From the NCBI GenBank assembly GCA_947561395.2, contig OX387189.1:22754329-22818328 (forward strand): DNA of 64,000 nt, given 5' to 3'. Positions 4,278-51,103 of this stretch are shown piece by piece. The stretch comes from Buxus sempervirens. Lineage: Eukaryota; Streptophyta; Magnoliopsida; Buxales; Buxaceae. The notes below the pieces were generated by a model, which was not told the DNA's origin, ran no database searches, and worked only from the letters and a program-made list of their open reading frames with translations. Positions within the stretch are counted from its first letter, which is position 1; each line of letters starts with the position of its first letter. The position numbers were made by a program, and so were the translations under genes.

Positions 4278-5340
4278 TGTGCGCGCGTCGAAAATGCCGC
4301 ATGGTGAGGAGAACGGATTTGCGTGCCTCCGGATGGGTAAAACGGGAAGGTTGGAGTTGCCACCGCCTGATGGAGTGTAGGCGGATACCTGGGTGCCTAA
4401 GTTTGTCTAGTAGGCTGGTCTACGGCTGAAGATTCTAAGGTCTCGGTTACAGCTCGGGGAAGTCCGTAGACACCCCGGTCCGCCCTGTCGGTTGACGGGT
4501 CCCATGGGTTTTCTTGGTTTGAGTCAACTCAGTTTTCACTCACCCGATTCCTAATCCAGCATGCACAACTTTGGTTAAGTCTGGTGGGACCACCTGAATG
4601 GTGTGGGTCCCTTTATTTGATTTTATCTTGTTTAATTAAGTGATCTTGGTCTGATTGTGTGGGCCCCATTGGAAGGCCCACGGATTCCTTGGTGGGCTTG
4701 GTTAAGCCCACATGTCCCCTAGTAGGCCTCAGTCTAGCCTAAGAGACCCTTTGGGTTTAGGTTTAGTGAATGGATTTTATTTAAGGTTCAAGTTTGAAGA
4801 TTAGGTTTAGTTTCCTGCAAAGTGAGTCTGGATTGTTTGTGGGCCCCTTAGGTGGGCCACACAGAGTTTGCCAAGTGATTAACTTTATCTTTGATTTAGT
4901 TCTCCAATTCGGGCTAAGAATGGGCTTGGGGCCCATGTCTTAGGTTTGGGCTTTTGAAAGCCCAAGGCTTTTAAGGTTGGGGTAGTGGATCCCCTCCTTA
5001 TTTGGTTAATGGGCTTGACGGGTCCAATAGGCCCTGGCCCATGGTCTCGGCCAAACCAAACTTAAACTACTCCAGCATGCTGTGAATTGAGCTTTTGGTG
5101 GGCCTCACTGGGTTTAGCCCACTTGCTTAACTTAGTTTGCTTACTTAAATCTGATTATACTTGCTGGGCTGGGTGGGCCCCGTTGGAAGGCCCACAAGTG
5201 TGTCTGGTTGGACCGGGTTGGTCCAAGTCCCATCTTGGGTTTCCGGGTGGCCCGGAAACCCTATTGGCTTGCCTGTTTAATTAAACGGACATGAAGAATG
5301 GTGTAGAATCATAAAAGACACAAAACAGAGTCTATGATAG

Positions 5341-5424
5341 TGTAGCCGACCTGAGTTGTCGGCTACGCTCAGGTCGGCTACAAACAAAAGGTTGTTGATC
5401 CAACCTGAGTTGTCGGATCAGCTT
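5341..5424. repeat. Hairpin cluster in A1
   Basis: The stems are GTAGCCGAC/GTCGGCTAC with loop CTGAGTT, then a second overlapping arm GTCGGCTAC, then GATCCAAC/GTCGGATC. The cluster lies about 1.06 kb from the LTR 3' end, the same distance as the clusters in A5 (30903-31000) and A6 (39696-39840). Confidence 0.75.
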
Positions 5425-7884: not shown

Positions 7885-8850
7885 AGAGGCAGGTGAAGTT
7901 CTTGTATGTATTCAAAAAAGTAACGAAAAACTTGGTTAAAAGGTCGACGCTCAGGTGTCATCGAAATCCAATTGCATTCGGCGTATCGAAGTTTAGGAAG
8001 AAGGCTGTCCCTAGCCTCACAAAAGAAGTTGGGGAAGTATTCATAGAACTAGAACTACAAGAACTAGAGTGGACCGTTGACAGCTCCCAGTCTGCCGTCA
8101 GACAGATTGTACAAACCATGGTAAACTTGACTAAGGAAGAATGGTACCAAAGCAAGACGGCGACCCTGAGCAAGAGCCACCGCAATGCCAGCAAACTCTT
8201 TAACCATCTGGGCCGAAGGACCACAACACATGAAACAACAAAAGAACATCAATAAAAAAGAGCAATGCTCCTGAAAAGTGGGAGGAGTTTCAGAATCCAC
8301 TATGCCTTCAGCACAAAGGAAGGTGCCGAAAGCACAAATAGCATGTGAAGTGTCGAGAACAGCAGGAGGAAATGAAGACAAATTATGGTCTATTTCTTCA
8401 CCAAGAACCGGAAGACTGGTAATACAGCAGACGTCAAGGATAGTTGGAGTCATGGGACCATGGTAAAAGGAGAATGTATTGGAACAGCGACACCAAAAAA
8501 GCGTGGTAACCTCGAGCAAGACGGGATTGAAAGGAGGGTAAAAGGTGGAATAGAGAATCAACTCAGCTATGCCAAGTCTGATCCATTCACTAATCAAATG
8601 AGGCCATAATCTGTCAACCCATCTGTTCCAGACCCTGGCACGCCTAGGCCATGAACAAAGGAGAGTAGCCAGGTTATTCCAATTCACAGCCCCATTATCT
8701 GTAATCAAATGATAAGGAGGAGCTAACACATTTGAAACATCCAAATTTTCTGCATTAGAAAACGAACCAAGAACAAAACCCTCTGCACCCTTGAAAAACA
8801 GGTTTAGATCGTCAAGGTTTTCGTCCACCGCGACTGAGGAAAGATAGAAG
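7885..8850 (-). pseudogene. PMD protein pseudogene b, truncated
   Basis: The minus strand encodes the N-terminal part of a plant mobile domain (PMD, aminotransferase-like) protein. Visible marks are WNRWVDRLWP, a motif reading GPMTPTILDVCCITSLPVLG, and a GPLWFLQ-type block near 8065, where Trp/Gln codons have become stops. The frame continues as PERRPFNQVFRYFFEY and is cut at 7884 by LTR A1, so the C-terminal half is missing. It lies head-to-tail with pseudogene a, about 310 bp downstream of that gene's stop. PMD proteins occur both as host genes and as cargo or extra ORFs of plant transposons, and which applies here is unknown. The start is not certain: Met codons occur near 8933 and in the 8840 area. 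Confidence 0.75.
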
Positions 8851-9160
8851 GAAGGAAGCAGTTGCAAGAAGAATTGAGAACACAGGAAGAAGAAAGGACA
8901 GATATAGAAGGAAAAAAGATTTAAAATGATCACCGTATCGGGAAAGATTTAACTTGATTAATACGGCAATTATCTGCCTGAGGAAATCAAGATGACGGTT
9001 CGAAATTGCATCAGTCAAGAACGAAGAACGTACGGATAAGAAAAGAAGCCGATTTGTAAATATAACTTTCGCCGAAAAAGAAGGCCGACTTCACTGGCCA
9101 TGACAGTTATTTCGATGGACGTCAGAAGATATGCAATTTAAACAAATGCTTTAATCAAAT
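8851..9160. other. Spacer between the two PMD pseudogenes
   Basis: This AT-rich spacer holds the presumed 3' UTR of gene a and the promoter region of gene b. I see no further motif in it. Confidence 0.4.
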
Positions 9161-11984
9161 TCAAAATGAAACATTTTTAAAATTGAAATACAATTGATTA
9201 AAAGATTCTTCTAAGGATCGGATCGAATCCATTAACTCGGATTGAAGCAGCAACCAACCATGGTAAGAACATGCTTCAGCTTCTAAATCCCAGACCGCCT
9301 CCTCATATTGGCGGGTTTTGTTTGCTACCAGTTCTTCATTCACCGGATTGGCTTTAAATATCTCCTCACGCAGACGAAGCAGGTTTGACCTTTTGTTTTG
9401 AAGTAATTCAATTTGACGGTCAATATCTGCCACACTGTCGTTGATCTCCCTCACACGATGAACCATCTCAAAGTCTTGCTGTTCACAACTATCCCGGTCA
9501 GTCTTCAATTCTGTAACGGCCTGATACCGAGAAGCTAAAAATTTACATTTTTGAGCCAACTCCTCAATATCTGCTGAGCAACGGTTGAAAGACACTTTTA
9601 AGAAAGACTTTGAAAGCACTGTTTTCGCTGAAGAAGAAACTACAAAAGTATTTTGAATTGCCGTTGTCAGTTCCATAACATGACGAAGAGAAGTAGTTGA
9701 AACTCCAGAGATTCCAGGACTTAACAGCTCAAGAATTTCAAACCACAGGGAATCAAGTGAGTGGGAGGAAGTCGAGGCTCCAGAAGAAAAAGTTGAAAAT
9801 TCAGACCTAATCACGGTCAGCAAGTTACCGAGATAGGTGAAAGGGTTACCATCAGGAGGCGGTAGACCGATTGGTACAAACATCAGAGGATCAAGCGAAC
9901 TAGACTCATCCCCTTCACCTACTTCAAAAACAACCGAAGCGATTGGTTCAACAATTGGAGAAGCAGTTTGAGAATTTTCCCTCTCAAACTCAGCATCGAC
10001 GGTTTCAAACCCAGGATGAAGAGTTAAGGAAGAAGATCAGACAGGAGAATCGCCGGAAGACAAAATGACAAGAAGATCATCAGAGATTGGTGCAAAAACA
10101 GTACCAGTAGAATTGCCAGGAAGGCTATCGACAGGATCAGACGATTCTGGATCCGCAATGGGGTCCGTTTGAATCGAGGAAGGAACAGAAGCGGCAGGAG
10201 CAATGTTGAGAGGGAAAATATCCAAAATGGCCAGAGCAAAATGCACTGTGAAAGGTTCTGCAGCATCGGCAGAAGGAGCAACTGAGCGTGAAGAACTTTC
10301 TTCCTGAAGAAAGGTGGGAAGTTAGAAAATAAACGAGGGGGAGGAGAAAAAAGAAAAAGTTCACCTCTAATCGTGGGCGCTTGGGCAATGGAGGAGGTGG
10401 GCTGCCATCGGAAGGGCATGCAACAGCAGGCTCTATTTCCACCAGCGAAGGAACCTTTGCTTTACATGTTGGAAAGAAAACATCTTCAATCCATGACACT
10501 CGGAATTAAGGAAAATAACAGTGGAAAACACACCTTTCTTGGTAGGTGCAGGGAAGGGTCGTGAAAGATCTAGCCACCAGAGATATTCTTGTTCTGAACG
10601 ACAGCAAATTTCCTTCCAAGCAGAACTCCACCATTCTGAAAAGTCCAGGCGAGAACCAGAAATGACGGGGAGATGAGGTAAACGAAATTTTGCGGCCGCA
10701 TCCAAATACCGAGCAGCAATATTAGCGGCTTCATCTTGGGAAGTCAAGCGTCAAACAATGGACTCAGTGTTGATTGAAAACAACTGGTTGGAATCAAGTT
10801 TAGGGATCCCTTAAGCACAGCAGAATTGCTTGCTAACACAATGTGCGTGCGACGGAAACGCCGCACGGGAAAATTTGGAGTCGCCACCGCCTGATGGGGT
10901 GCAGGCGGACACATGGGTGCCTAATCTTGTCTATTAAGGCTTTGGTCTGCGGCTTGAGATTCTAAGTAGGGTCTCGGTTGTGGTCCGGGGAAGTCCGTAG
11001 ACACCCCAGTCCACTCTGTCGGGTGACGAGTCCCTTAGGTTTATCCTGGTTTGAGTCAGCTCATTTTTGTCTCACCCAATTCGTAATCCGATATGCAGCT
11101 TGGTTAAGTCTGGCGGGACCACCTGAGTGGTGTAAGTCCCTTTAATTGCTTTTATCTTGATTAATTAGGTAATTTGAGTCTGGTTGGGTGGGCCCCGTTG
11201 GAAGGCCCACGGTGTCCTTGGTGGGCTTAGTTCAGCCCATTTACCCTTGTGGGCCTCAGTCTAGCCTGAGAGGCCCTTTGGGCTTTGGTTAGTTCAATTG
11301 ATTTTACTTTTGGTTTCAAATTGGATTTAAGTGATTTTCATGTAAAGGTGAGCCGGGTTGGTTTGTGGGCCCCTTAGGTGGGCCCACATGGTAGCCAAGT
11401 AATTTATTGGATTTATCTTTTTAAGTTTCCAGAAAATGGGTTGGACACTGGACTTGGGGCCCATAGTCCTAATTAGGGCTTGAAAGCCCAAGTTACGGGA
11501 AGTTAGGGTTTTGAACCCTTACTTGGTTGGTTCGTGGGCTTTGGCGGGCCTGATAGGCCCTTACCTTTAGTCTCGGCCAAACCACGCATTTCATACATCA
11601 ATTCACCAAGTTTGGTTCGGGTAGGCCACTTTTTGGGGTTTGGCCCACCCGGGTTGGTCAGTTAATTTACTTATCTTGATTAAATCACATGTATGTATTC
11701 CGTTGTGGTCATTGGGCTTTGTGGGCCCCGTTGGAAGGCCTACTGGAAATCAAGTTGGACCGGGGGTCCAAGTCCCATGTTGGGTTTCCGGGTGACCTGG
11801 AAACCCTATTGGTTCATTTGGTTCGGTTCGGAAATGCCACCCACATCTAGCAAAATGATAGGAAATATCACAGAGAACATATAAAAAAATGACATTCATC
11901 AAAGGAGATCGGCTCACCATACTGGGTCCAAGGGCATTTTCGGGTTTCCAAAAAAATATAGCAATTCGGCATTTTTTAGGGGGT

Positions 11985-12212: not shown

Positions 12213-13252
12213 CCTGATTCTTTGTTTTCTTCTTTTTTCTCAGAGACTGGCTGGGTTTTGGAGCTCTGTAACACCTCCCTGGTGTTCCTCAGACTCCCAG
12301 AAGGCCTTTAAACTCATACTGAAATTAATCTAACCTTCCCACAAAAGACTACTCCAGCTCTCCTTTTAAACAAAACCAAGCCCGATGATATATATAAAAA
12401 ATAGCTATAGACTACACAGGGGGTAATGGGGGTGATGGGAGCATGCTTGCAGGCACACAGGCAAGGAATAGCAGGTGGCAGGGGGTTGGGGAGCATGTTG
12501 GCAAGTCTAGCAAACAATAAAACAACAAACCCAAAAAAACAATAACAAACAGAGATCGCCTACGTAAGATGGAAACCTGACTTGCCCCTACGCTTAGACG
12601 GGACTTACGTATTCACGTCAATGAACCGGCAGGGAAAGGAAAGAGAGGGGGGGGTTTACAGGGGTACACAGGACATGCTCGAAGCGAGGGAACAGACTCC
12701 CTTTATTGAATGATACACAAAAAAGAACTCTCCGAACAGTGGCCTTGGTGGTCTAAGGTGGGATGACCAAGCTTCCTACCTCCTCCTGGGGTCTCCCTTA
12801 CCCTCGGAGACCCCCGTGTTACCAAAAATATAAGAACATGCATGTTACAGTAAGGAGAAAGAACAAGTCCGATAACATGCTTAGATAACTCCCATCTTGA
12901 TACATGTGAAATAAAAGTAGGCAGGGAACAATACCTGAGGTTCCGTAAGCTCACGTGCAGGGTGGAGGCTTCTCCTTGAGATGAAAGTGCTGGAGCTCCC
13001 TTCCTTTGAACCTCCAACAGCAACCCTCCTTTTCTTCGGACCTTGGTGCGATGGGGGAGAAGAAGAAGAGGAAAATGGAATGAGGGCATCGGGTGGGGTG
13101 TTCGGGGGCTAGGGAGTCAAGGCCATAGCAACACAGGGTAGGTTCCGGGAACTGAAAGCGAGCCAAAGAAAAGCTTTTCACCGAAAAAATTTCAAAACCT
13201 GAAATGAGCCAACAAAAATTTTCCCAACCCTTTTGCACGAAGTCTCGCGCGG

Positions 13253-15981: not shown

Positions 15982-16232
15982 AACCGCATATGGTGTGCGG
16001 TTGATTTTTTTCGACCACCGTTCGCGCAAGCCAATTAGCGCAAGCGATGGACGAAAAGCAACCGCACTGTAAGTGCGGTTTGCTTTTCATCAGACTGTGC
16101 CTACGCAAGTTTGTCCCCTAATCATTGTTAAAAAAACGTGGCCGAACCGCACATAGCATGCGGTTTAGACCAAACCGCACAGTATGTGCGGTTGTGACCA
16201 AACTGCACACAACCGCACTGAGTATGAGGTTT
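15982..16232. repeat. AACCGCAC/GTGCGGTT hairpin array in A4
   Basis: Five to six inverted pairs with AACCGCA(C/T) and (G/A)TGCGGTT arms and short loops lie immediately upstream of the TATA box. A similar array stands at 25229-25468 in A7. Confidence 0.85.
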
Positions 16233-16245
16233 TGTCCCTGTGTTC

Positions 16246-16253
16246 TATAAATA
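16246..16253 (+). promoter_or_regulatory. TATA box of A4
   Basis: TATAAATA is followed by a C/T-rich leader and 'ccttgctgatctcc'. The same context (TTCTATAAATAGAAAATCCG) is present in A7. Confidence 0.65.
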
Positions 16254-18745
16254 GAAAATCCGAACAGTAGACAAGGGTTGGCCATTCCTTGCTGATCTCC
16301 ATTTCTTCTCCCCCAATACCTCTTATCCGAAAGCCTTCCTTTTGCCCCACCTTGCTTCCCCAAACTCAAAACACTCTTCTTTTGACCATCCTACCCCTCT
16401 CCCTCTCTGCTTCCCCACTCAAGAACTTGGAGAAGAAGAGGAAAAGCTGCTGTTGGTGCTAAAAGGAGGAGTTCCAGCCACTTTGTTAGCCCCCAAGGGG
16501 GTTGAAATACACTTCTCCAGGGTTTCTAAACCCTAAGTAATGTTCTCCATTACACTTTGTTTAACATAAGTTGAAATGAGCTGGTTTAGTGTCCATTAGC
16601 TTGTTTAGTGTTCATAGCATGCATCTATCCTTTTTGGCTCTCTCTCTTCCCTTGTTTGTGATCCCACTAATATAAGAGAGTCCCCCATGGTGAGAGGGGG
16701 ACCATACATTTGGTACCAAGGGAGGTGTGCGCGCATCGGAAACGCGACACAAGAAAAATTCGGAGTCCCCACCACCTGATGGGGTGCAGGCGGACACCTG
16801 GATGCCTAAGTTAGTCTATTTTGGGCTTTGGCCTACGGCTTGAGATTCTAAGTAGGGTCTCGATTGTGGTCTGGGGAAGTGCGTAGACACCCCAATCCAC
16901 CCCGTCAGATGACGGGTCCCGTGGGTTCCCTGGTTTGAGTCAGCTTGCTTTGGTTTCTCACCCGATTCCTAATCCGATATGCAAATTGGTTAAGTCTGTC
17001 GGGACCACTTGAGTGGTGTGGGTCCCTTTAATTGATTTTATCTTGCTTAATTTAGGTGATCTGAGTCGGATTGGGTGAGCCTCGTTGGAAGGCCCACGGT
17101 GTCCTTGGTGGGCTTGACTAAGCCCACATGCCTCTGGTGGGCCTCTGTCTAATCCTAGGAGGCCCTTTAGGCTTAGGCTTAATGAATTGCTTTTACTTAG
17201 TTCATTCAAGTTGGAGACTTAGTGATTTTCAGGCCATAAGTGGGTCGGCATTAGTTTGCAGGCCCTTGGGTGGGCCCCCATATTGGTTGCCGAAAAATGT
17301 TTTGATTTACCTTTGTTTATCTTTGCAAAAATGCACTGAGTATTGAGCTTGGGGCCCGTGGTCCAGTTTTGGGCTTGAAAGTCCGGTTCTTTGAAGTCTA
17401 GGGTTTGCACCCTAACTTGGTTGATTAGTAGGCTTTGGCGGGCCTGATAGGCCCTAGCCCTTGGTCTCGGCCAAACCACACAATTCAAATACTCATTCCG
17501 CACAACAAGGTTCGGGTGGGCCGCATTGGGTTTGGCCCGCCCGGTTCAATTAGTTCACTTTATTTAACTTACTTGCATGCTTTTGGGATTTATCGGGCTT
17601 GGTGGGCCCCATTGGAAGGCCCACAGGTGTACCAAGTTGGACCGGCGGTCCAGGTCCCAAGTTGCTGCTGCTTCCAACAGCAGCTAAGGTGGACCAAGAC
17701 CGTGGCTACGGGGTGGGAGCATGCTTGTTAGGCCACAAAATAGCGAGTTAAAAGGGGCAAGGGGAGGGGGGCATGTTAGGATTACAAAACAGTGAATGTG
17801 CCGAGGCCAAGAGGGATGCATCAGTGCACACACGGCGGCAGCAAGTTGGCCGAGTAAACACAAAACACAGCAACAATAGTGCGGTTAAAATCGTGACAGA
17901 TCATGTGAGAATGATAGTAAAAATCCCATGCATGCATTCCCAAAATAAATCCCCATCAATGCGTCAAACATGGGGCCTAACATATATGCATGCAAAGGGA
18001 TGATTTAGCATGCATAAACAACCAAGTGCAACTAAAGGAGTCTTGCACTTATTAACAAAAGAATCCACATGACAACTCTATGTAACCTCTTCCCCTAACC
18101 TTAAAAATGCTTAGAGAAAGGTGATGAAAGGGGATTATATGGGGGTACATGAGAAGAGCTATTAGTGGGGGACATGTTTCCTCCTTTAATGGAATAAACC
18201 ACTACCAAGAACATGAAAAATAACATGCTGGACCTGCAATTGGAGGCACTTTAAAAGACTTGTGACAACCTCATTCATACTCCCCTAGAACCACACGACC
18301 ACCTCAGCTCTCCCTTGGAGATTTTCTTATGACAAGATGAGGAACAACGCATGGAGATCCCATAAAAGTAACTTAAAACATGGTAGAGACTACATGGACA
18401 AAAAATCATGCAAGTGAGCTTATTTTCATATATGTCATGTAGAATCTAATGGAGAACATTACCTGGGGGTTCTTGAACCCTTGAGCAAGGTGGAGATGTT
18501 CCCTTGAGGTGGTACAGCAGCTGGAGACCTTCCTCCTTGACAGCAACAGCAGTGGATCCTTCTTATGTTGGGGTGCAAGTGATGAGAAGGAAGGTGGGAG
18601 GAGGGTGAAGTGCCTTGGGGTGGTGTTGTGGGGCTATGGAGGGCAAAGAGAGTTGAAGAAGGGAGGATTTGGGTGGGAAAGAGTGGTGGATGAAAGCTGA
18701 GAAACAGCCAAAGAAGCCAACCCCCGGAAATGGGCTATTGTTGGC

Positions 18746-18753
18746 CTTTTATA
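18746..18753 (-). promoter_or_regulatory. TATA box of A3, within an inverted repeat
   Basis: TATAAAAG on the minus strand sits between arms GTTGGCC (18740-18746) and GGCCAAC (18754-18760). Other copies lack these arms. Confidence 0.5.
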
Positions 18754-18765
18754 GGCCAACTTAAT

Positions 18766-19012
18766 GTATCCTGCAACTCAGGCCGGATACACTAACCCTT
18801 GTTCATAGCCGGCCACTATGGCCGGCTACACATGTGTCCCTTTGTATCCGGCATTAAATGTCGGATACAAAACACAATTATTCGAAAATTAAATGCCGTC
18901 GCGAATTTGTCGAGCGATCGGCACGAATCTCGCCGATCAATCTTCTTGTATCCGATGAATAGTGTCGGATATACACAAGGGTATGTGTATCCGACATATT
19001 TGGTCGGATACA
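18766..19012. repeat. GTATCC/GGATAC hairpin array in A3
   Basis: The pairs include GTATCCTGC/GCCGGATAC with loop AACTCAG, CAGCCGGCC/GGCCGGCTA, GTATCCGGC/GTCGGATAC, and further pairs to 19012. The array lies just upstream of the TATA box in the transcription direction. Confidence 0.85.
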
Positions 19013-21588
19013 AATCGAAAAATTATGGATTTGCCCTTCGACTTGACCGATTCGACCGATTTGACACTTTCGGATATCTACGGATTGCCCCCTGCGAATT
19101 TTGGTTTAGTCCCTGAGATTTTTAGCAACTTTTGGATATTTAAGATTTAGTCCCTGAGATATTTTGCTGCGTTGGTTTCCACGTGTGCAGTTCTTGTGCC
19201 ACATGTGCAGTTTCCGGTTTTGCTGCTCGGAAACTTCGACAGCTCATATCTCCTTCATCCGGATTCCGATTTGAGCAAACTCAGTTGCGTTGGACTCATG
19301 TCGGAGCCCTCTATCCAATGATGTAGAGCTAAGCACCTGGCACGGGGTTCGAAAAAAGTCAACTTTCGGCTCCCCCTTTAGTTTGACCGGCCCACAGAAC
19401 CTTCATCCGGACTCCGATTCTAGCAAACTCAGTTGCGTTGGACTCGTGTCGGGATTCTCTATCTATTGAGATAAAGCAAAGTAGCCAATTATCACTTGAT
19501 CAACAGGTCAAATTTCGACCCCTCAGGTTTTGACTTTTTAGTCGGGTTTTACATTTTTGGCTTTTCTGGGAGCGCAAAAATGAGGTGCTTACAGGAGGGT
19601 GAGAGACTTTCTCGAATACTTGTAGACCATTTAAGCTACTATTTTGATGTGTTTTGATTACTTTTGGGGGGAGCATGTTCCCTCTTGCATGGCCAATCCG
19701 TTGTACCCCTATGTAACCCCCCTTCTCTTCCTTTCTTAGCAATTTAGTTTTGCACCCAATGAGGTACTGGTTTTGGCATGTTTAGGGATGGTAAAATATG
19801 CATGTTTGTATGTGTGAGCATGATCCCCTCCTCCCTTTAGTATGCTGTTGTTTTGAATCCTTAACATGCCCCCCTTGGCCCCTTTTAACTTATTGTATTT
19901 GTATGCTAGCATGCTCCCAACCTAGCTACTGTTATGCGCCCATTTGCTTGTTGTTATGTGGCAGGAAAGTAACAAAGGCAGGGACACTCGAGTCCTCACT
20001 TCCCTGCTGGTCGTGGTGTAAAAAGGGGAGAGGCAAGCCCAGGGCCTTCTCCCCTCCCCCTTTGCGCGAATCTTAGAGCTCAAGAGAGACCAAAGGAGGG
20101 GTGTTCCCCTCTCTGAACCACTGTGGGCCCCCACAGAGGCCTACACGACTGTGGGACACCCAGGAAAGAAGCCGAGCTAGATCCCGAGGCCACTTCGGCC
20201 TTTCCTGGATTTTCAGGCCCAAACCACATACTCAGAGCGGTTCGGGCGAAACCGCACTTGATTTGCAGTTGTGCCTTGACTGCATAGAATGTGCGGTCAG
20301 TTCCCAGAAACCCTTAAAAATCCATTTTGGGACCCGGTTGGACTCAATCCCATCCGAATGCACATGACCCGACTTATGGGGTTTTTTAGGGTCAACCCAA
20401 ATCCATTTTGAGACTGTGGGCCCGGATGGGCCCACCCTGGCTTTGTGGGCCCTCCAATGGGGCCCACCCAATCAGACTCATTTCATTCTAAGCTAAAAAT
20501 ATAAAAATCAAGTAAAGGGACCCACATCGCTCAAGTGATCCCGCCAGACTTAACCAAATTGAATGTTGGATTAGGAATCGGGTGAGTGAGAGACTAAAGT
20601 TGACTCCAACCAGGAAAACCTATGGGACCTGTCATTTGACAAGGTGAACCGAGGTGTCCATGGACTTCCCTGAACGGTAACTGAGAACTTGCTGAGAATA
20701 TCTAGCCGCATACCAATCCTTAATAGACAAACATAGACACCCAAGTGTTTGCCTGCACCCTATCAGGCAATGGCACGCACCTTTTCCGTGCGCCTCGCCG
20801 ATGCGGCGTTTCGACGTGCGCACAATGTATATATTAGTGACGGTAACAAGAATAATCCGAATCCATCATGTAAACCAAACAATAATAGATATGTATGTGA
20901 AAACAATAATATCGATCAAAGTTAATAAGTCACAGTAGAACTCATAAGATAAGACTGCCTTTAACTAGAGTAAAGTCAATGTCCACAATGCCACCTCCCG
21001 GCTTAGGTGCGAAGCTGAGTACACGATCATCATCTTATTGTGGGAGAACCCAACCAGTACAGTGAAGGGTTGGCACGTACTAACCAGTCACAGTCCGAGT
21101 ACACGATAAAATGAGGGAAAGCCGCAGCCCACCAGTACAGAGAAGGCCTCATCAAGTACACGATGGAACGCGTGCACGAACAAAGAGTTACATCTAGCAA
21201 AGAACAATCCTTCCCACTATCTACCTCCTAAATGGATCCATATCGAGCTATGGCAACTAGACTCGAAAACACAAAACCAAATACGATATTTAGTAAGCAC
21301 AAACTCGACTCAACATAATCATCTCATCCGGAGTACACGGGGCATCCCTGAGTACTCAGAGGAATTAAAAATCCAAAACCAAATCTCAATCTCAAGTTTA
21401 ATTATAAATTCCAAATTCATTGTTACATCTCGTGATAGTTTAAGACATTGTAAGTACTACCATAAAATTACTTTATTTTGAAATTAGTAACCAAATATCT
21501 TTAATAAACTTATTCTTATAACATGTGTAAAAATTCTTTATTAAAATAGTTTTTAGATTAATTCCAGAGGAAAAACTTTTGAGTTAGT

Positions 21589-25228: not shown

Positions 25229-25468
25229 AACCGCACACAATATGCGGTTGATTTTTTCAGCCACCGTTTGTGCAAGCCAATCACAACACGCGGTGGACGA
25301 AAAGCAACCGCACTTACAGTGCGGTTCACTTTTCGTCATCCTGCACCTGTGGCAGTTTGTCCCCTAATGATTGCTGAAAAGATGTGGTCGAACTGCACAT
25401 ACCCTGCGGTTTTGACCAAACCACATGTACTGTGCAGTTTCGGCCAAACCGCACTGTATGTGTGGTTT
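25229..25468. repeat. AACCGCAC/GTGCGGTT hairpin array in A7
   Basis: Inverted pairs such as AACCGCACAC/ATGCGGTT and AACCGCAC/GTGCGGTT end about 14 bp before the TATA box. Confidence 0.85.
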
Positions 25469-25481
25469 TGTCTCTGTGTTC

Positions 25482-25489
25482 TATAAATA
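25482..25489 (+). promoter_or_regulatory. TATA box of A7
   Basis: TATAAATA lies in the same context as in A4. The transcript would splice at the donor about 268 bp downstream. Confidence 0.65.
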
Positions 25490-29820: not shown

Positions 29821-30902
29821 TCTACACTGGTCGTGGCAACACACAAGGCCATGCAATATCAACAACCAACAATAACATTACTGTGCGCGCGTGGGAAACG
29901 CAGCACGGGGTAATTCGGAGTCGCCACCGCCTGATGGGGTGCAGGCGGACACCCGGGTGCCTATTCTTGTCTATTTAGGGCTTTTGGTCTGCGGCTTGAG
30001 ATTCTAAGCTTGGTTCTCGGTTGCGGTCCGAGGAAGTCCGTAGACACCCCGGTCCACCCCGTCAGATGACAGGTCCCGTGGGTTCCCTAGTTTGAGTCAG
30101 CTTTCTAGTTGGTTTTCACCCGATTCCTAATCCGATATGCAATTTGTTTAAGTCTGTCGGGGCCTCCTGAGTGGTGTGGGTCCCTTTAATGGATTTTATC
30201 TTATTTGCTTTAGGTTATCTGAGTCTGGCTAGGTGGCCCCATTGGAAGGCCCACGGTGTCCTTGGCGGGCTTGGGTGAGCCCATGTGCCCCTGGTGGGCC
30301 TCTGTCTAACCTAGGAGGCCCTGTAGGCTTAGGTTAAGTGGATTGATTTTACATTAAGGTTCAGGTTGGATACTTAAGTGATTTCCATGCAAGAAGCGGG
30401 CCGGCATTGATTCGTGGGCCCCCATGTTGGTTGCCAAAATGCCTTTAATTTATCTTATTTAAATTCACCCAGGTAGGTTGGATGTTGGGCTTGGGGCCCG
30501 TAGTCCAAATTTGGGCTTAAAAAACCCAGTTCCTTGAGGCTTAGGGTTTGCACCCTTCCTTGGTTAGGTTAATGGGCTTTGGCGGGCCCGATAGGCCCTA
30601 GCACTAGGTCTCGGCCAAACCATGCAAATTCAAACATATCATTCCACACATCAAGTTCGGGGTGGGCCACATTAGGCCTGGCCCACTTGGTTAAGTTAAT
30701 TACTTTAAGTTGCTTAATTGCATGCATAAGAAGTTTATTGGGCTCGGTGGGCCCCGTTGGAAGACCCACTAATTGTTCCAAATTGGACATTGGTCCAAGT
30801 CCCAATTTGGGTTTCCGGGCCCTCTTGGTTTAATAGTTTTGGTGTAAGATACTAAAGGAAAACATCACAAACAAGAAAAAGCCCATAGTGGCATTTTTGG
30901 GA

Positions 30903-31000
30903 TGTAGCCGGCTACACATTAGCCTTAATGTAGCCGGCCATATGGGCCGGCTATGAACAAGAAATGGGTGATCCGGCCTGAGTGGCCGGATCACCTCAAA
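30903..31000. repeat. Second hairpin cluster in A5
   Basis: The stems are GTAGCCGG/CCGGCTA and GATCCGGCC/GGCCGGATC with loop TGAGT, about 1.02 kb from the LTR 3' end as in A1 and A6. Confidence 0.8.
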
Positions 31001-32877
31001 TGGGCCTCTTTTGGGGACCTGGGCCTTGGGATGGCTCTTTTAGGCCTCCTAGGGCCTCCTACAAGTCATGTGGGCCCCTGGGAAGGCCCATATTGGTTCA
31101 GATTTGAGGAGAAGTCTTGAGCGGCTTCCTTTGGGGGTGTTCCAGCAAAAATCAAAGGGGAAGAGGAGATGCCTAGGGCTGCTGCTCCTCCTCACTTCCT
31201 TTTCTATAATTCTGGTAATGTGTAGGGGTCTTAGTACCCCTACTTTGGTGGTCACACTTCACTATTCAATGGGCCACGAAAGCCCACCACCGAGGCCTTG
31301 CATGCTATGCGGGTTAATCACAAAACCATGCATGCTCCTAAGGTGTGGGTGGGTGAGAGTGGGCACGAGCATGAACAAACCACCGGCGCATACCAACATT
31401 AATGAAGGAGGCGTATTGCAATAATGGGGAGGCGGCGGCTGTACATGGGAAAGGAAGCACACTTACCATGCATGGAGATGACATGAAGGGGTATGGAGGT
31501 GCTGCTGTTGTCTCTCAACAGCAGCTCGTATGAGCCACAACAGCGGGCTACCGGGGTAGGAGGTCATGCTTACTAGCCATAGAACAGCAAATTTCAAGGG
31601 GGGAAGGAAGCATGTCGATACACATACGAAATCATAGCATTTACATGGTCAAAACTGCAACATGAAAAGGGGTTAACCATGCTAGGGGTGAGTGGGGTCA
31701 TGCCTATGATGAGTTGAGGGACTGGGCCTAGTCTTGGGCTCTTAATCTTGCTGGGACAGCAGCAACTAATGAGAGTTGGCTGCCGTCCCCAGCAGCAACT
31801 CACCTATGTCATTGCAGGGGGGGGGGGGGGGGCATGACAATGGTTCTTCTCATGATATCAAAGAAGAAAAATCAGGCTTAGGCATGTAAAACAGCAGGTA
31901 AAAAAGGAGGAAGCAGGGACATGCATGCATGCACATTAAACCAAGCAAACGGGAGAAGGGATGGGGGAGCATGCATCAATATGCTAGGACAGCAACATGA
32001 AGACCATATGGCATAGAAAACATGCCTTGGTACATGGAGAACACAGCAAGCTCTAAAAAAGCATATATTCATTCCTCATAACAATGGCAAACAAGTAGGC
32101 AAGCAACGGGCTTCATGCAAAAGGGAACATGCATGCATGATAGCTAGGGGGGTTGGGGGGTGAAGGGAGCATGCTCATCGCATCATCTCAACAGCAAACA
32201 ACACAGGGTACGACTAGCAGCAGAATATCCAAAAAAATCACAAGAAAAAGCGAAAAAAAAAAGAGAAAATGAAGAAGGGAAGTGGGGGGTATTATAAGGG
32301 TACATGAGATTAGAATGGGAGGAACATCCTCCTCCTCAAAATACTCAAAACAGTAGGCTAACATGGCAGTTTATAAACACCCACAAAAGTATAAAATAGA
32401 TGAGCTCTCCTACTCCCAAAGGACCCTACGTGGCCCTCTTATTGGTGGTGACTTCATGCCAAGAAAAGGAAATCAAATGCATGCATAAAGTGCCATAGAA
32501 ATCAACCTCATGACAAGAAGGAAAACAAAAGTAGGAAAATCATTAGAAAAATCTGATTTTAATATATGAGTAACAAAACATGATTAGGGATCTTACCTGG
32601 AGATTCTAGGTTCTTTAGAGGAGGTGGAGACACTCCCTTGAAGATGGACAGCAGCTGGTAAGTCCTCCCACAGTAGCAACAGCAAGCAACCTCTCCTTCT
32701 TGACACTTGGTGGGTGAGAGGTGAGGAGGAAGGAGGAGGAGAAAGGGTGGAGCTGCCTTCGGGTGGTGGTGGGGGTCAATGGGTGCTGGAGAGGGAGGGT
32801 TCAGATGAGCAAAGGTCGGGCAAGGAGGCCTAAGCACAGTGGAATCCACCAACCATTGGAAAGGGGGCTGCTGCCCC

Positions 32878-32885
32878 CTTTTATA
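32878..32885 (-). promoter_or_regulatory. TATA box of A5
   Basis: The minus strand reads TATAAAAG. The hairpin array begins 12 bp upstream and the donor lies about 288 bp downstream. Confidence 0.6.
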
Positions 32886-32896
32886 ACAATTTTAAT

Positions 32897-33141
32897 GTAT
32901 TCGAACTTGGAGTCCGGATACATTATATACCATGTGTATCCGGCCTCCAAGGCTGGATACACTAAGCCGCCTTTGTATCCGGCCTTGAAGACCGGATACA
33001 AAACATAATAATTGGCAAAAATTAATTCCGCCGCGAATTTGTCGGGGAATCGGCGCGAATCTCGCCGAGCAAATCTTCGTATCCGGCCTTGGAGTCCGGA
33101 TATACACAAGGGTATGTGTATCCGGTATATTTGACCGGATA
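32897..33141. repeat. GTATCC/GGATAC hairpin array in A5 U3
   Basis: Pairs such as GTATCCGGC/GACCGGATAC recur through the array. A 'gaccgatt(t/c)' triplet repeat follows at about 33175-33205. Confidence 0.85.
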
Positions 33142-33375
33142 CAAATCAAAAAATTACGGATTTGCCCTTCGACTTGACCGATTCGACCGATTTGACCGAT
33201 TTGACACTTTTGGATATCTACGGATTGTCCCGCACGAATTTTTGTTTAGTCCTTGAGATTTTGGATATTTAAGATTTATTCCCCGAGATATTTTGCTGCG
33301 TTGGCTTCCACGTGTGCAGTTCCTGTGCCACGTGTGCATTTTCCGGTTTTTTGCTGCCCGGAAACTTCGACAGCT

Positions 33376-33800
33376 CATATCTCTTTTATCTGGACTCCGA
33401 TTTGAGCAAACTCAGTTGCGTTGAACTCGTATCGGAGCCCTCTATTCAACGACATAGGGTTAAGCACTTGGCACGGGGTTCGAGGAAAGTCAACTTTCGG
33501 CTCATCCTCAAGTTTGACTGCCCTTAGAACCTTCATTCGGACTCTGATTCCTGCAAACCCAGTTGCGTTGGAACCGTGTCGAGATTCTCTATCCAATGGT
33601 ATAGAGCAAGGTACTTGGCACGGAATTCGAGGAAAAGTCAACTCTCGGCTCTTCCTCAAGTTTGACCGCCCGCAGAACCTTCATCTGGTCTCCAATTCCA
33701 GCAAACTCAGTTGCGTTGGAACCGTGTCGAGATTCTCTATCCATTGAGATACAGCAAGATAGCCAGATTTCATTTGATCGAAAGGTCAACTTTCGACCCC
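33376..33800. repeat. 147-148-bp tandem units in A5 U3
   Basis: Three copies have landmarks AACTCAGTTG/AACCCAGTTG at 33409, 33556 and 33704. Confidence 0.85.
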
Positions 33801-34564
33801 CTTGGGTTTGACTTTTTAGCAGGATTTTGTATTTTTGGCTTTTTGGGAGCGCAAAAATGAAGTGCTTACAATTACATTACTAAGCTTAAGCATGGATCCA
33901 GGACAAGCTAAACCAAAACAGCAAACCATCATAAAATCACAACTCTGACATCACAATAAAACAAGACGTTCAACATCATGTATAACTCAACCAGTTCACC
34001 ACATGTCCCTCTGGACCAGAACAGTACCTCATGTACCTTCAGCATTTACTCCAAATTCACAACACATGTCCATTGGTAATAAAACCATTTACTCACACCA
34101 AGAGAAATCTTTACGATACATTTCAAAAACTTGAAATCAAGTAAAACTAGATTAAATAAATTCTTATTCAAGTACAGTATATAAACAAAAGGAAGCTAAA
34201 TCAGGAACTCCTAGTGTTGGGTACAATGAGTTCACCTATCATTAGCCCTTTAAATTAACCTTGGATGCTCCTAAGAATTTCCAGAATTTCACTTAATATT
34301 CTCATAACAGGTAACAGTAGTTCTAACATTCTAAACAAATCAATAGCTAAGTGCTTGAACCCTCAAAGTATTAAAATCTAGCTTGATTGGTCAAATTCAC
34401 ATTTCGACAAAGATTTGGGGCTTGCGCTGACCCCTAGCGGTCTAAGGCGCGAAGTCGGCGGTAAGTCGTTTGTTAAAATACAAGTCGCACTTACTTAAAA
34501 TAGGGTAGGCGCGAGCTAGGCGCGAAATAGGCGCACGATACGCACGAGATTGGCTGTAAGAAAA

Positions 34565-39695: not shown

Positions 39696-39840
39696 TGTAG
39701 CCGACCTGAGTTGCCAACTACACACAAAAGCCTATGTAGCCGACCTGGGGTGTCGGCTACACACAGAAATACATGTAGCTGACCACCCAGGCTGGCTACA
39801 AACAAAAGTCTACTGATCCGACCTGAGGTGTTGGATCAGT
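39696..39840. repeat. Hairpin cluster in A6
   Basis: Stems GTAGCCGACC with GTCGGCTAC, GTAGCTGACC/GGCTGGCTAC and GATCCGACC/GTTGGATC have loops with TGAG or TGGGG. It lies 1.01 kb from the LTR 3' end. Confidence 0.8.
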
Positions 39841-46716: not shown

Positions 46717-47109
46717 TTTGTGATTGAACTTTTATTTAAATATAGATGAGTTATGTTAGATAATCCATATATAGGATTAAAAATGATGAATGGGAATGGA
46801 TGGATTGTGTTTCAATTGGATGGTTATGGTTAGATGGATATGGAATGGATTGTGTGATTGCTAGATTTTTGTAGGTTATATAGGTTTTGGACCATTTGGG
46901 GTTTGATCAACCCTCCATTTTTAGGGGAGATGCTGTCGAAATTTCGGCTCATCCTAGGATGTGATTTTTATTAAATTTGCTATCACTTTTTTTGTCTTTT
47001 TCCTGTCTGTAGACACCCCAAATTGCACAGTAAAAATAATCAATAATCAGTAAAAATCACTATCTCCTTGGAAACCAACACAAAATTTGAAAAAATGAGT
47101 TTTTTCCTT

Positions 47110-47251
47110 GTATCCGACAACTCAGGTCGGATACAAGCGTATTTCTTTGTATCTGATGGAAAATGCCGGATACAAGTAGCCCTTAATCTATCCGGCAACA
47201 TATGTCGGATACACATAGGCGCTAGTGTATCCGACCTGACATGTCGGATAC
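47110..47251. repeat. GTATCC/GGATAC hairpin array in D
   Basis: Four consecutive pairs occur: GTATCCGAC/GTCGGATAC with loop AACTCAG, GTATCTG/CCGGATAC, TATCCGGCA/TGTCGGATA, and GTATCCGAC/GTCGGATAC. Confidence 0.9.
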
Positions 47252-47417
47252 ATTAGTTTTGCTCAAAATTAGGGTTTTCCGAGAGCTTTCACCTTTTACC
47301 ATCATATCCTTCATTAAATGAGTGGAAATCTCGGAAATAGCCTTAGGGTTAAGGTTGGTGGGCTATAGACCTTATGTTGTGTCTACCATCTCACCAACCC
47401 TAACCCTAGCCTTTGCC

Positions 47418-47425
47418 TATAAATA
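47418..47425 (+). promoter_or_regulatory. TATA box of D
   Basis: TATAAATA, 114 bp before the donor. The spacing is shorter than in the A copies. Confidence 0.6.
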
Positions 47426-49493: not shown

Positions 49494-51103
49494 CTGTCAT
49501 GTTTATTTTCTTGGTTTTTTGGTTTAAGAGGTGCTATGCCAGATTTGAATGGAAAATTTACTTGTAAATTGGACTAACACAATACAATGTTAAGGATCTT
49601 AAGCTAACTACGGATGACTTATACTTTTGCATCATTTTCATACAGGAATTGTCGGTGCGAGCAGAGACCTTCATCTATACGCATCTACGGAAGGACAGTT
49701 CCCCGGTTAGCGAGGATGATGAAGATAAGATTGTAAATTGAATTAAAATTAACAGTTAATTAGATGCAATAATTTCATAAAAAGCATATTCTTAAAGTTA
49801 TTCACATATTTTTTGCAAGAGCAAATGAGAAATCTCATGGCTGCTGGCACGCCAGATGGTACCTCTCGTGACGACATCTACACACAGATCATGGGACCTA
49901 ACACCCATGGTCGGGTAAGATGTTGTGGGATGGGCGTCACTCCCACTAAAATGTGGGGCTCTTCCTCAAGCCGTCAAGGAGTTGATTCTAAAGAACTAAA
50001 TAGACTGAGGGAACAATTGGAAGAGGAGATGCGACTAAAAGAGGAACAAGGGGAGTGGCCTAACAAAGAGATGGAGCGGATTAACAGAGAGATAGCAGAG
50101 CTTCGACGTTTATTCTATTCATTTGCAGGGCAGGTAGTATGTATACAATAATTAAGATAGTTTCACTTTTTTTACCTTATCTTAATATGTGCATTTAATG
50201 ATGAATCTTTTTTACTTATACTATAAGCTGGACAATCATCTTAAGCTGAAAATACTCCACACCAAATGCCAGACAACCCTCCTGATCATTGCTAGAAGTT
50301 GTAATTTAAGGTTTGTAACTAGTAAATTGAATATTTATCTTTTAATCTTTTTATTCATTTAGTGTTTTTAAGGTGTGTAAATTCAATGTATGATTAAATA
50401 CTAATGAATTTTTTATTTCATGCAGGAATGCCAGATGATGTGCCCAATTGAACATGTTGATTGTGTTAATTAAATTTGGATGATATTTATATTTTGTGTT
50501 TCTTATTTTTAGATTTGTATATCGTTGGATTACTTTTCGTTATTTAGTTTTTGTTTTCTACAGTTTTATATATTGTGGGGAAATTTGTTTATTGTTCACA
50601 GGTTAATACAGGTGCATTTGTAATGAATGGAATGGATAAGAACTAAATAATGTTTATTTTTATGTAGGTGTTACTTTTAGTGGATAGCTATTACCGCCGC
50701 TAAAAACGTGAATAAACAACTGGCGCAACCGGCGCAAATAGACCTTTTACCGGTGGTAAGCCACTACCGTCAGTAAAAAGCTTAAGTTTCAAAGCCCAAA
50801 ACATACATCCGGTAATAATTATTACTGGCGGTAACTATTACTGCCAGAATTATAAAAAATTAAAGCGCCGGTAAAAACCAAAAGAATAAGCGGTGGTAGA
50901 TATTGACCATTGTTAAAATTCGTCATTTTGCGGTAGAAAATAGGGGTCGTTGTCCTTTCGCAATCAATACCGGCACTAATAAATTACAGCCGCTAATTCG
51001 AACACCGACGGCATTGCCAGCGACTCTGTGGGTTCCCGTTGGTCATTCTTTTACCGCCGGTCATTCTTTTTCCAAACTTTTTCAGGTCCTCTTTTTTGTA
51101 GTG
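49494..51103 (+). mobile_element. CACTA (En/Spm) element, 3' part
   Basis: The right terminus CTTTTTTGTAGTG is the inverse of CACTACAAAAAAG. Subterminal 'taccgccgg', 'accggtggtaa' and 'gcggtaa' repeats fill 50690-51060. Coding exons of a plant En/Spm-type protein lie upstream. No left CACTA terminus is found, and LTR D lies at its left edge, so only the 3' part is present. The left limit is approximate. Confidence 0.8.
49646..50146 (+). pseudogene. En/Spm-type transposon protein, C-terminal exons
   Basis: The first exon (about 49648-49738) reads ELSVRAETFIYTHLRKDSSP and then an acidic tail. The second (about 49818-50134) has DDIYTQIMGPNTHGRVRCCG, then a Lys/Glu-rich helix (RLREQLEEEMRLKEEQGEW) and a probable donor CAG|GTAGTA. 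The MGP..HGRVR.G motif followed by a coiled coil is the C-terminal signature of plant CACTA-associated proteins of the Ptta/En/Spm family. The upstream exons are missing. Confidence 0.8.

Follow-up and report, generated by a model that had tools for sequence, protein, structure and literature searches.

The LTRs of Sireviruses (Ty1/copia) carry repeated motif (RM) boxes, palindromic sequences with a CGG-CCG core that lie upstream of TATA (PMC2829016). In that paper the CGG-CCG signature is found in 12 of 13 cases, near-identical boxes recur in otherwise dissimilar elements, and RM is called Sirevirus-specific and absent from the classic retrotransposons compared there. Its authors suggest a role in regulation, report motif-database matches to sites of stress-related factors and ask for experimental proof. 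An earlier sequence-only reading of the DNA analysed here knew of no description of the hairpin cassettes in its LTRs; since palindromic CGG-CCG boxes upstream of TATA are in print for Sireviruses (PMC2829016), this kind of box was already known.

Other described systems resemble the cassettes in part. The VANC targets of VANDAL DNA transposons, which serve anti-silencing through loss of methylation, consist of a motif, YAGTATTAY, bound by a transposon-encoded protein (PMC5735166); their carrier differs from the LTRs considered here, that paper does not use the word palindrome, and no such protein was found here in the ORFs scanned. The TNPA-bound subterminal repeats of CACTA elements comprise direct and inverted short repeats, stem-loops and a GC-rich part, and are taken to be bound by the transposon's own protein (PMC2613891); they serve excision at the transposon ends, whereas the Buxus units lie in LTRs and are phased to the promoter. 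Hairpins altered by template switching (PMC8794818) also show compensatory changes, and their loops, some of them 7–8 nt long, can be inverted. There the process is inferred for rRNA genes, by way of DNA replication, whereas the Buxus hairpins are LTR promoter boxes, in which it could also take place at reverse transcription.

Like the Sirevirus boxes (PMC2829016), the Buxus units are palindromic CGG/CCG repeats, often four or five to an array, and are clustered upstream of TATA (A3, A4, A5 and A7 at 32–33 bp, D at 187 bp), although the second arrays of LTRs A1, A5 and A6 are not near a good TATA. The Citrus RM box AATCCGGCTWRCCGGATT (PMC2829016) shares its ATCCGG half with the units studied here. 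The Buxus arrays differ from those boxes in their Ty3-like carriers, in triplet order and spacing (CCG-N11-CGG) with a fixed 7-nt loop, in a 39-bp lattice with recurrent TATA distances, in a further array that some LTRs bear in their 3' part, and in both-arm class changes and loop inversions. Literature on LTR palindromes and promoters, covered as titles and the beginnings of abstracts and including few subscription papers, yielded no recognised account of such arrays in Ty3/gypsy LTRs.

The window analysed is a 64,000-nucleotide stretch of the Buxus sempervirens genome and is rich in long LTRs. All seven hairpin clusters that had been ascribed to its LTRs (A1, A3, A4, A5, A6, A7 and D) were found at the positions given for them, and the hairpins are present genome-wide. 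The window contains 62 hairpins of the searched kind, some of other kinds included, compared with 5–12 in 10 first-order Markov shuffles. Each unit has a 7-nt loop between arms of up to 12 bp and a nearly invariant core, A-N-CCG-N11-CGG-N-T. In the genome of 676.5 Mb, GTATCCGRC...GYCGGATAC with loops of 3–12 nt allowed occurs at 12,691 sites, and 12,623 of them have the 7-nt loop (GTATCCGRC-N7-GYCGGATAC). The broader pattern GTAKCCGRC-N7-GYCGGMTAC gave 14,602 sites against none for a reversed, uncomplemented control, and AACCGCA-N3..12-TGCGGTT gave 3,736 against 3 in the control, a count that pools loops of 3–12 nt but has loop 7 in all listed places except one. When loops of 0–19 nt were tried for the AACCGCA class (aaCCGCA-N7-TGCGGtt), 94 of 99 arm pairs had loop 7. 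Without any demand for outer pairing, the core CCGRC...GYCGG was found at 73 distinct loop-7 sites in 234,883 bases, with 0–1 site for each other length from 0 to 15; since 15 loci behind this figure (L009–L023) had been fetched with the loop-7 pattern, it is the genome-wide 12,623 of 12,691 that gives the unbiased loop-length count.

The four stem classes distinguished previously are all present, but they are not separate: they share one geometry and one register, GTAT-CCGRC, GTAG-CCGRC, TGAT-CCGRC and aa-CCGCA, each with the 7-nt loop. The 'GATCCGRCC' class is the common stem with its outer pairs altered, and AACCGCAC, the form seen in A4 and A7, consists of AACCGCA followed by the opening base of the loop, in the same frame as the others. 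Since this last class fits the common frame, the four classes are one unit, A-N-CCG-N11-CGG-N-T, in which the other pairs can change.

LTR A5 is a solo LTR of 3,989 bp (TGTAAGCAC...GCGCGCACA; positions 29882–33870, minus strand) flanked by a 5-bp target duplication, ATTAC; near 1800 the window has a related stretch without interruption. The upstream array of A5 (32897–33141, minus) comprises five units, whose CCG triplets precede the TATA box TATAAAAG, read from the sequence at 32878–32885 (minus), by 32, 71, 110, 214 and 253 bp. In A3 (array 18766–19012, minus; TATA box 18746–18753, minus) the corresponding distances are 33, 72, 111, 215 and 254 bp, so that the A5 distances are those of A3 minus one throughout; the distance script also gives a further position at 182. 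A3 itself (16726–19593), flanked by CCTCC on either side, is apparently a solo LTR too. The AACCGCA-class arrays are on the plus strand. That of A4 (15982–16232) has five units, whose CCG triplets precede the TATA box TATAAATA (16246–16253, plus) by 33, 71, 99, 184 and 262 bp. In A7 (array 25229–25468; TATA box 25482–25489, plus) the units start 35, 63, 91, 176 and 253 bp before TATA, the CCG being 2 bases nearer to TATA than the unit start, and the distance script gave four of the five units. The D array (47107–47256, plus) consists of four units on a 39-bp lattice, with CCG 187, 226, 265 and 304 bp upstream of its TATA box, also TATAAATA (47418–47425, plus); in the window copy the 265-bp unit has a degenerate sequence, and the distance listing omits it there. 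The whole D array (47109–47252) is also an imperfect inverted repeat with 64-nt arms, 72% complementary, and its first and last loops are near reverse complements of each other. A position just upstream of the TATA box, as first proposed for the hairpins, therefore describes A3, A4, A5 and A7, each with a unit at 32–33 bp, but not D, whose units lie at 187–304 bp.

The other proposed location, roughly 1 kb before the LTR ends on its 3' side, was borne out in A1, A5 and A6. The second array of A5 (30903–31000, minus; GTAG and TGAT classes) lies 1,021 bp from the LTR 3' end; that of A6 (39696–39840, minus) has GTAG units and one TGAT unit, and that of A1 (5341–5424, minus) GTAG units with shared arms and one TGAT unit. 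No full TATA box was found within about 500–600 bp on each side of these arrays, in both directions. Weak TATA-like words occur near the arrays of A5 (CTATAAT at 31204, plus strand, about 200 bp away) and A1 (TATAAT at 5159, minus strand); around the A6 array, over the same 500–600 bp per side, there was not even a weak one. The loop AACTCAG is indeed common to D and A1, but its supposed inversion in A1 is a strand effect only: LTR A1 has minus and D plus orientation, and in the sense of its own LTR each loop reads AACTCAG.

A step of 39 bp separates 233 pairs of neighbouring units, and one of 28 bp separates 30. Measured from CCG to TATA, most A4/A7-type LTRs have units at 33, 61/72, 89/100, 174/185 and 251/262 bp, and D-type LTRs mostly at 187 (29 units) or 188 (8), 226, 265 and 304 bp, with five loci at 175–177 bp instead. 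Some of the alternative distances are thus about 11 bp apart, and some copies depart by other steps (154, 182, 190). At the TATA end of 22 A4/A7-type arrays the step is 28–29 bp in 17 and 38–39 bp in 5, a difference of about one helical turn. Overall, 236 of 288 upstream unit-to-TATA distances fall on 21 values, each seen at least 4 times, the commonest being 187 (29), 304 (28), 226 (26), 265 (26) and 33 (17), whereas among 27 control distances downstream of a TATA-like word a single value recurs at least 4 times (5 times). Three of the 21 values, 18, 57 and 96 (15 distances), apparently trace back to a TATA-like word that D-type arrays contain on the other strand.

Since D copies are close relatives (94–97% identical), their repeated distances are not independent, and it is the agreement between families that counts. 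The proximal unit lies 33 bp upstream of TATA both in A3, of the GTAT class, and in A7, of the AACCGCA class, although A4 and A7 have the first 200 bp or so of the LTR in common with other A LTRs, so that A3 and A7 are not wholly independent. With the units masked, 34 of the 37 C1 loci best match A or D: 24 match the D LTR and no A LTR, 10 best match A-type LTRs (best 3 matches each, none of them D), and 3 match neither. As this comparison splits A from D, the lattice common to both is not simple LTR homology. A GGTGGCGACTC-like word is found near the 3' ends of the A1, A2, A3, A5 and A6 LTRs and, by eye, in D (49411); it is common to A- and D-type LTRs despite the lack of similarity in the masked comparison.

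Two kinds of element carrying the arrays were inspected for coding sequence. A full-length-looking A5-type element (L114), with array copies 12.4 kb apart, has an interior gag ORF (Retrotrans_gag, PF03732, E 2.9e-10) and no pol domain in 4 scanned ORFs of the 15 listed. Internal tandem repeats, including 92-bp units, occupy L114:782–2150 of this gag-bearing element. In a D-type element whose array copies lie about 21 kb from each other, one ORF contains RT_RNaseH and RT_RNaseH_2 and then a tail that by eye resembles an integrase but gave no Pfam hit. This points to Ty3-type carriers rather than Sireviruses (Ty1/copia). No gene for a DNA-binding protein tied to the boxes was found among the ORFs scanned in L114 (4 of 15), L115 (3 of 3) and L116 (1 of 1), and none of four ORFs scanned in the window, with one plant mobile domain (PMD) match, one weak Transposase_24 match and two without meaningful match, was tied to them. 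The PMD ORF is a long one on the minus strand between LTRs A1 and A2 (8064–8945; PF10536, E 2.9e-16); a further long minus-strand ORF between these LTRs (9161–10036) matches coiled-coil families, but in every case below threshold. A Transposase_24-like (Ptta/En/Spm) fragment (49753–50148; E 5e-5, below the curated cut-off) follows closely after the D LTR.

Covariation between the arms was scored on 466 units from 109 loci, from which L001, L011, L013, L020 and L024 had been left out for overlap and L114 and L115 as internal. Units were collected with the motif letters fixed on one arm and 2 of 3 CGG letters required on the other, and lattice neighbours were added at 5 of 6 CCG/CGG letters. The 39 lineages that each occur in at least 3 loci hold 380 units, and one real unit per lineage was scored. 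In these, 87.0% of 468 cells are paired, compared with 66.0% after shuffling, and 104 cells are changed on both sides, compared with 36.6. The covariation score is 0.511 against 0.159 for shuffled partners, and 0.054–0.115 when partners are slid by 1–3 columns; the earlier observation that the arms change together has thus withstood comparison with a null that lacks covariation. Whole-arm shuffles of the lineage units agree, with 392 pairs observed against 281 (sd 12) and a maximum of 327 in 20,000. Two sterner measures are weaker than the main score: 9 pairs had a both-side change against 7.9 expected (28 of 500 shuffles as high), and there were 32 further pair types against 26.8 (4 of 500 as high). 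For every one of the three CCG/CGG pairs, 37–38 of the 39 lineages are paired and unchanged; the remaining pairs change together.

The pairs do not contribute equally. Within the TAT class (21 lineages), the two loop-proximal pairs are clearly beyond shuffles (17 against 10.1 and 17 against 12.1), one outer pair is weakly so (12 against 7.3), and no other pair exceeds them. At the G/A pair, agreement between neighbouring units is 0.84 (84 distinct neighbour pairs) compared with 0.86 within a unit, which looks like a site class rather than helix repair; within-unit agreement is higher than that between neighbours at -3 (0.94 against 0.80), at -4 (0.64 against 0.50) and at the loop-closing pair (0.80 against 0.68). 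Genome-wide, the T/G position is T-A in 12,623 sites, G-C in 1,033 and mixed in 946 (by subtraction), where independence would give about 11,745, 155 and 2,700; as the copies are related, these counts are a description and not a test. Private changes, among 3,935 cells, are one-arm in 243, both-arm and paired in 19, and both-arm and unpaired in 4. Since they mostly break pairs, pairing is not kept copy by copy after insertion. Across lineages the stem is maintained by compensatory change, as in an RNA structural element; template switching and sites for a dimer would lead one to expect this as well. Joint change of both arms had been taken to imply either selection for pairing or conversion between arms. 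Because only a few TAT pairs covary and G/A agrees between neighbours as it does within units, selection for pairing as such is unsupported; conversion is a live possibility in view of the loop inversions.

These were seen most clearly at slot -174 of the A4/A7-type LTRs. In A7 this unit (25306–25326, plus) has the loop CTTACAG, and in A4 (16060–16080) the loop is CTGTAAG, its exact reverse complement. Among 41 copies (40 matches listed plus A4, with orientation set against A7), 23 have CTGTAAG or a near variant and 18 have CTTACAG or a near variant, between near-constant flanks (aaaagc...cacttt). As both loops begin with CT and end with AG, the difference amounts to three central bases. When the hairpin is excluded from the tree of the 41 copies, 9 changes of loop state are required, of which at least 4 are forced by well-supported branches, although most branches of this tree are poorly supported (9 of 38 starred). 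Shuffled loop labels need 13.6 changes on average, and 3 of 500 shuffles need as few as 9. The loop state is thus inherited yet has switched several times; recombination between copies could explain part of this switching. The -174 unit also sits inside a longer imperfect palindrome (25296–25336 and 16050–16090), with GACGAAAAGC on one side and a GCTTTTCGTC-like stretch on the other. At slot -251, the pair TATAGTG/CACTATA, which differs at five bases, hints at another inversion, in a table that includes some mis-oriented copies. A strict scan for loop inversions gave 3 inverted pairs among 5,918 flank-matched pairs. The wider scan gave 204 exact inverted pairs among 11,250, and 0 in two controls, but these are not used as evidence, since the flanks too are palindromes and a copy may be read in the wrong orientation.

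In PMC8794818, loop inversion is presented as a signature of template switching between the arms of a hairpin and is reported alongside clustered compensatory changes in rRNA genes; in the table given there, multiple compensatory changes and loop inversions alone are enriched and single compensatory changes are not. Inversion of a loop between unchanged flanks is what slot -174 displays (23 against 18 of 41 copies). Template switching can produce compensatory changes even where nothing is selected, so covariation by itself is no proof that pairing is under selection. The matched halves of the box may be kept alike partly by fold-back self-copying.

We think it somewhat probable that the units are dyad-symmetric sites in duplex DNA for a putative dimeric protein that activates the LTR promoter, their arms also copying themselves. 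The fixed loop with free letters, the near-invariant CCG, and a TATA phase held in dissimilar LTRs all argue for a dimer site, and the exact loop length, the phasing and alternatives about 11 bp apart argue for reading on the duplex. We infer that a dimeric protein would bind A-N-CCG half-sites with a fixed gap of 11 bp between the CCG triplets, and that rows of units upstream of TATA in Ty3-type LTRs would most likely activate the promoter or keep it open. Both half-sites would have to match for the dimer to bind, and the stem classes may correspond to variants of the protein or be altered sites. While single-stranded, possibly at reverse transcription or replication, the arms would fold together and copy one another by template switching, which could flip the loop and change both arms in one step. 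To our knowledge, none of the auxin-response, MYB, NAC, DREB or En/Spm TNPA motifs seems to fit an A-N-CCG half-site with such spacing; the maize TNPA motif begins CCGAC. Counting against the dimer-site reading are the second arrays of A1, A5 and A6 without a good TATA, the absence of a 33-bp unit from D, a 39-bp period that is not a whole number of helical turns, the strong RNA and DNA folds, the lean towards G-T mismatches and the other steps (154, 182, 190), and among the ORFs scanned no protein binding CCG-N11-CGG was found.

Several of these points would suit RNA stem-loops acting in the element RNA, for packaging, dimerisation or translation. The upstream array would be copied at the RNA 3' end and the second array lies in the transcribed part, downstream of the TATA box in A5; covariation is strong (0.511 against 0.159); and the A5 upstream array folds far beyond shuffles both as RNA (z -10.8) and as DNA (z -10.4), although such a strong single-strand fold would equally let the arms copy each other. 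Sense-strand mismatches comprise 97 G-T and 70 A-C (240 units, 55 arrays), an excess in the direction that an RNA stem would give but weak as evidence, since the copies share ancestry. A loop of exactly 7 nt with varied letters, TATA phasing with alternatives about 11 bp apart and a loop orientation that varies in slot -174 have no ready reason in RNA, and we judge this explanation distinctly unlikely. Of the possibilities first offered for the hairpins (paired binding sites, DNA cruciforms or RNA structures), paired binding sites, together with arm-to-arm conversion, are the best supported, and RNA stems are disfavoured.

The flipped loops at slot -174 and the private changes that mostly break pairs (243 one-arm, 19 and 4 both-arm) would also be expected if the palindromes were products of mutation without function, with template switching matching the arms and tandem duplication spreading them; according to PMC8794818, template switching explains clustered compensatory changes and flipped loops. 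That would leave unexplained the near-invariant CCG, the exact loop, the 39-bp lattice and the recurrent TATA distances in dissimilar LTR families, and such an origin alone seems very unlikely. One-arm private changes number 18 at C1, 41 at C2, 35 at G3 and 45 at p4 compared with 2, 2 and 6 at -1 to -3, counts partly shaped by the selection of sites, and a pile-up on CCG and the next position is expected for methylated cytosines. This would suit foldback triggers or CpG-rich targets of silencing, through small RNAs or methylation, and palindromes in maize Sirevirus LTRs are reportedly linked with small RNAs and silencing. An element should not, however, retain silencing targets at promoter-phased positions, and we hold this explanation to be highly improbable.

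The dimer-site reading has a bolder form, which we offer tentatively and consider doubtful, in which one trans-acting dimeric protein, from the host or from an element, would drive dissimilar Ty3 LTR families through a shared CCG-N11-CGG lattice. Class shifts would then let families change partner or escape, and the sites would correct themselves, each hairpin copying arm from arm during reverse transcription, so that a promoter code would be inherited by folding plus selection.

If the dimer-site reading is right, palindromic CGG-CCG promoter boxes are not confined to one Ty1/copia genus but occur in Ty3-type elements as well, and their strict geometry would allow the dimer spacing of the protein that binds them to be predicted. 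With thousands of copies in one genome, they would also provide a case where stem covariation is distinguishable from selection on RNA pairing. The loop inversions suggest that the arms copy each other, and compensatory changes alone would therefore not prove RNA structure.
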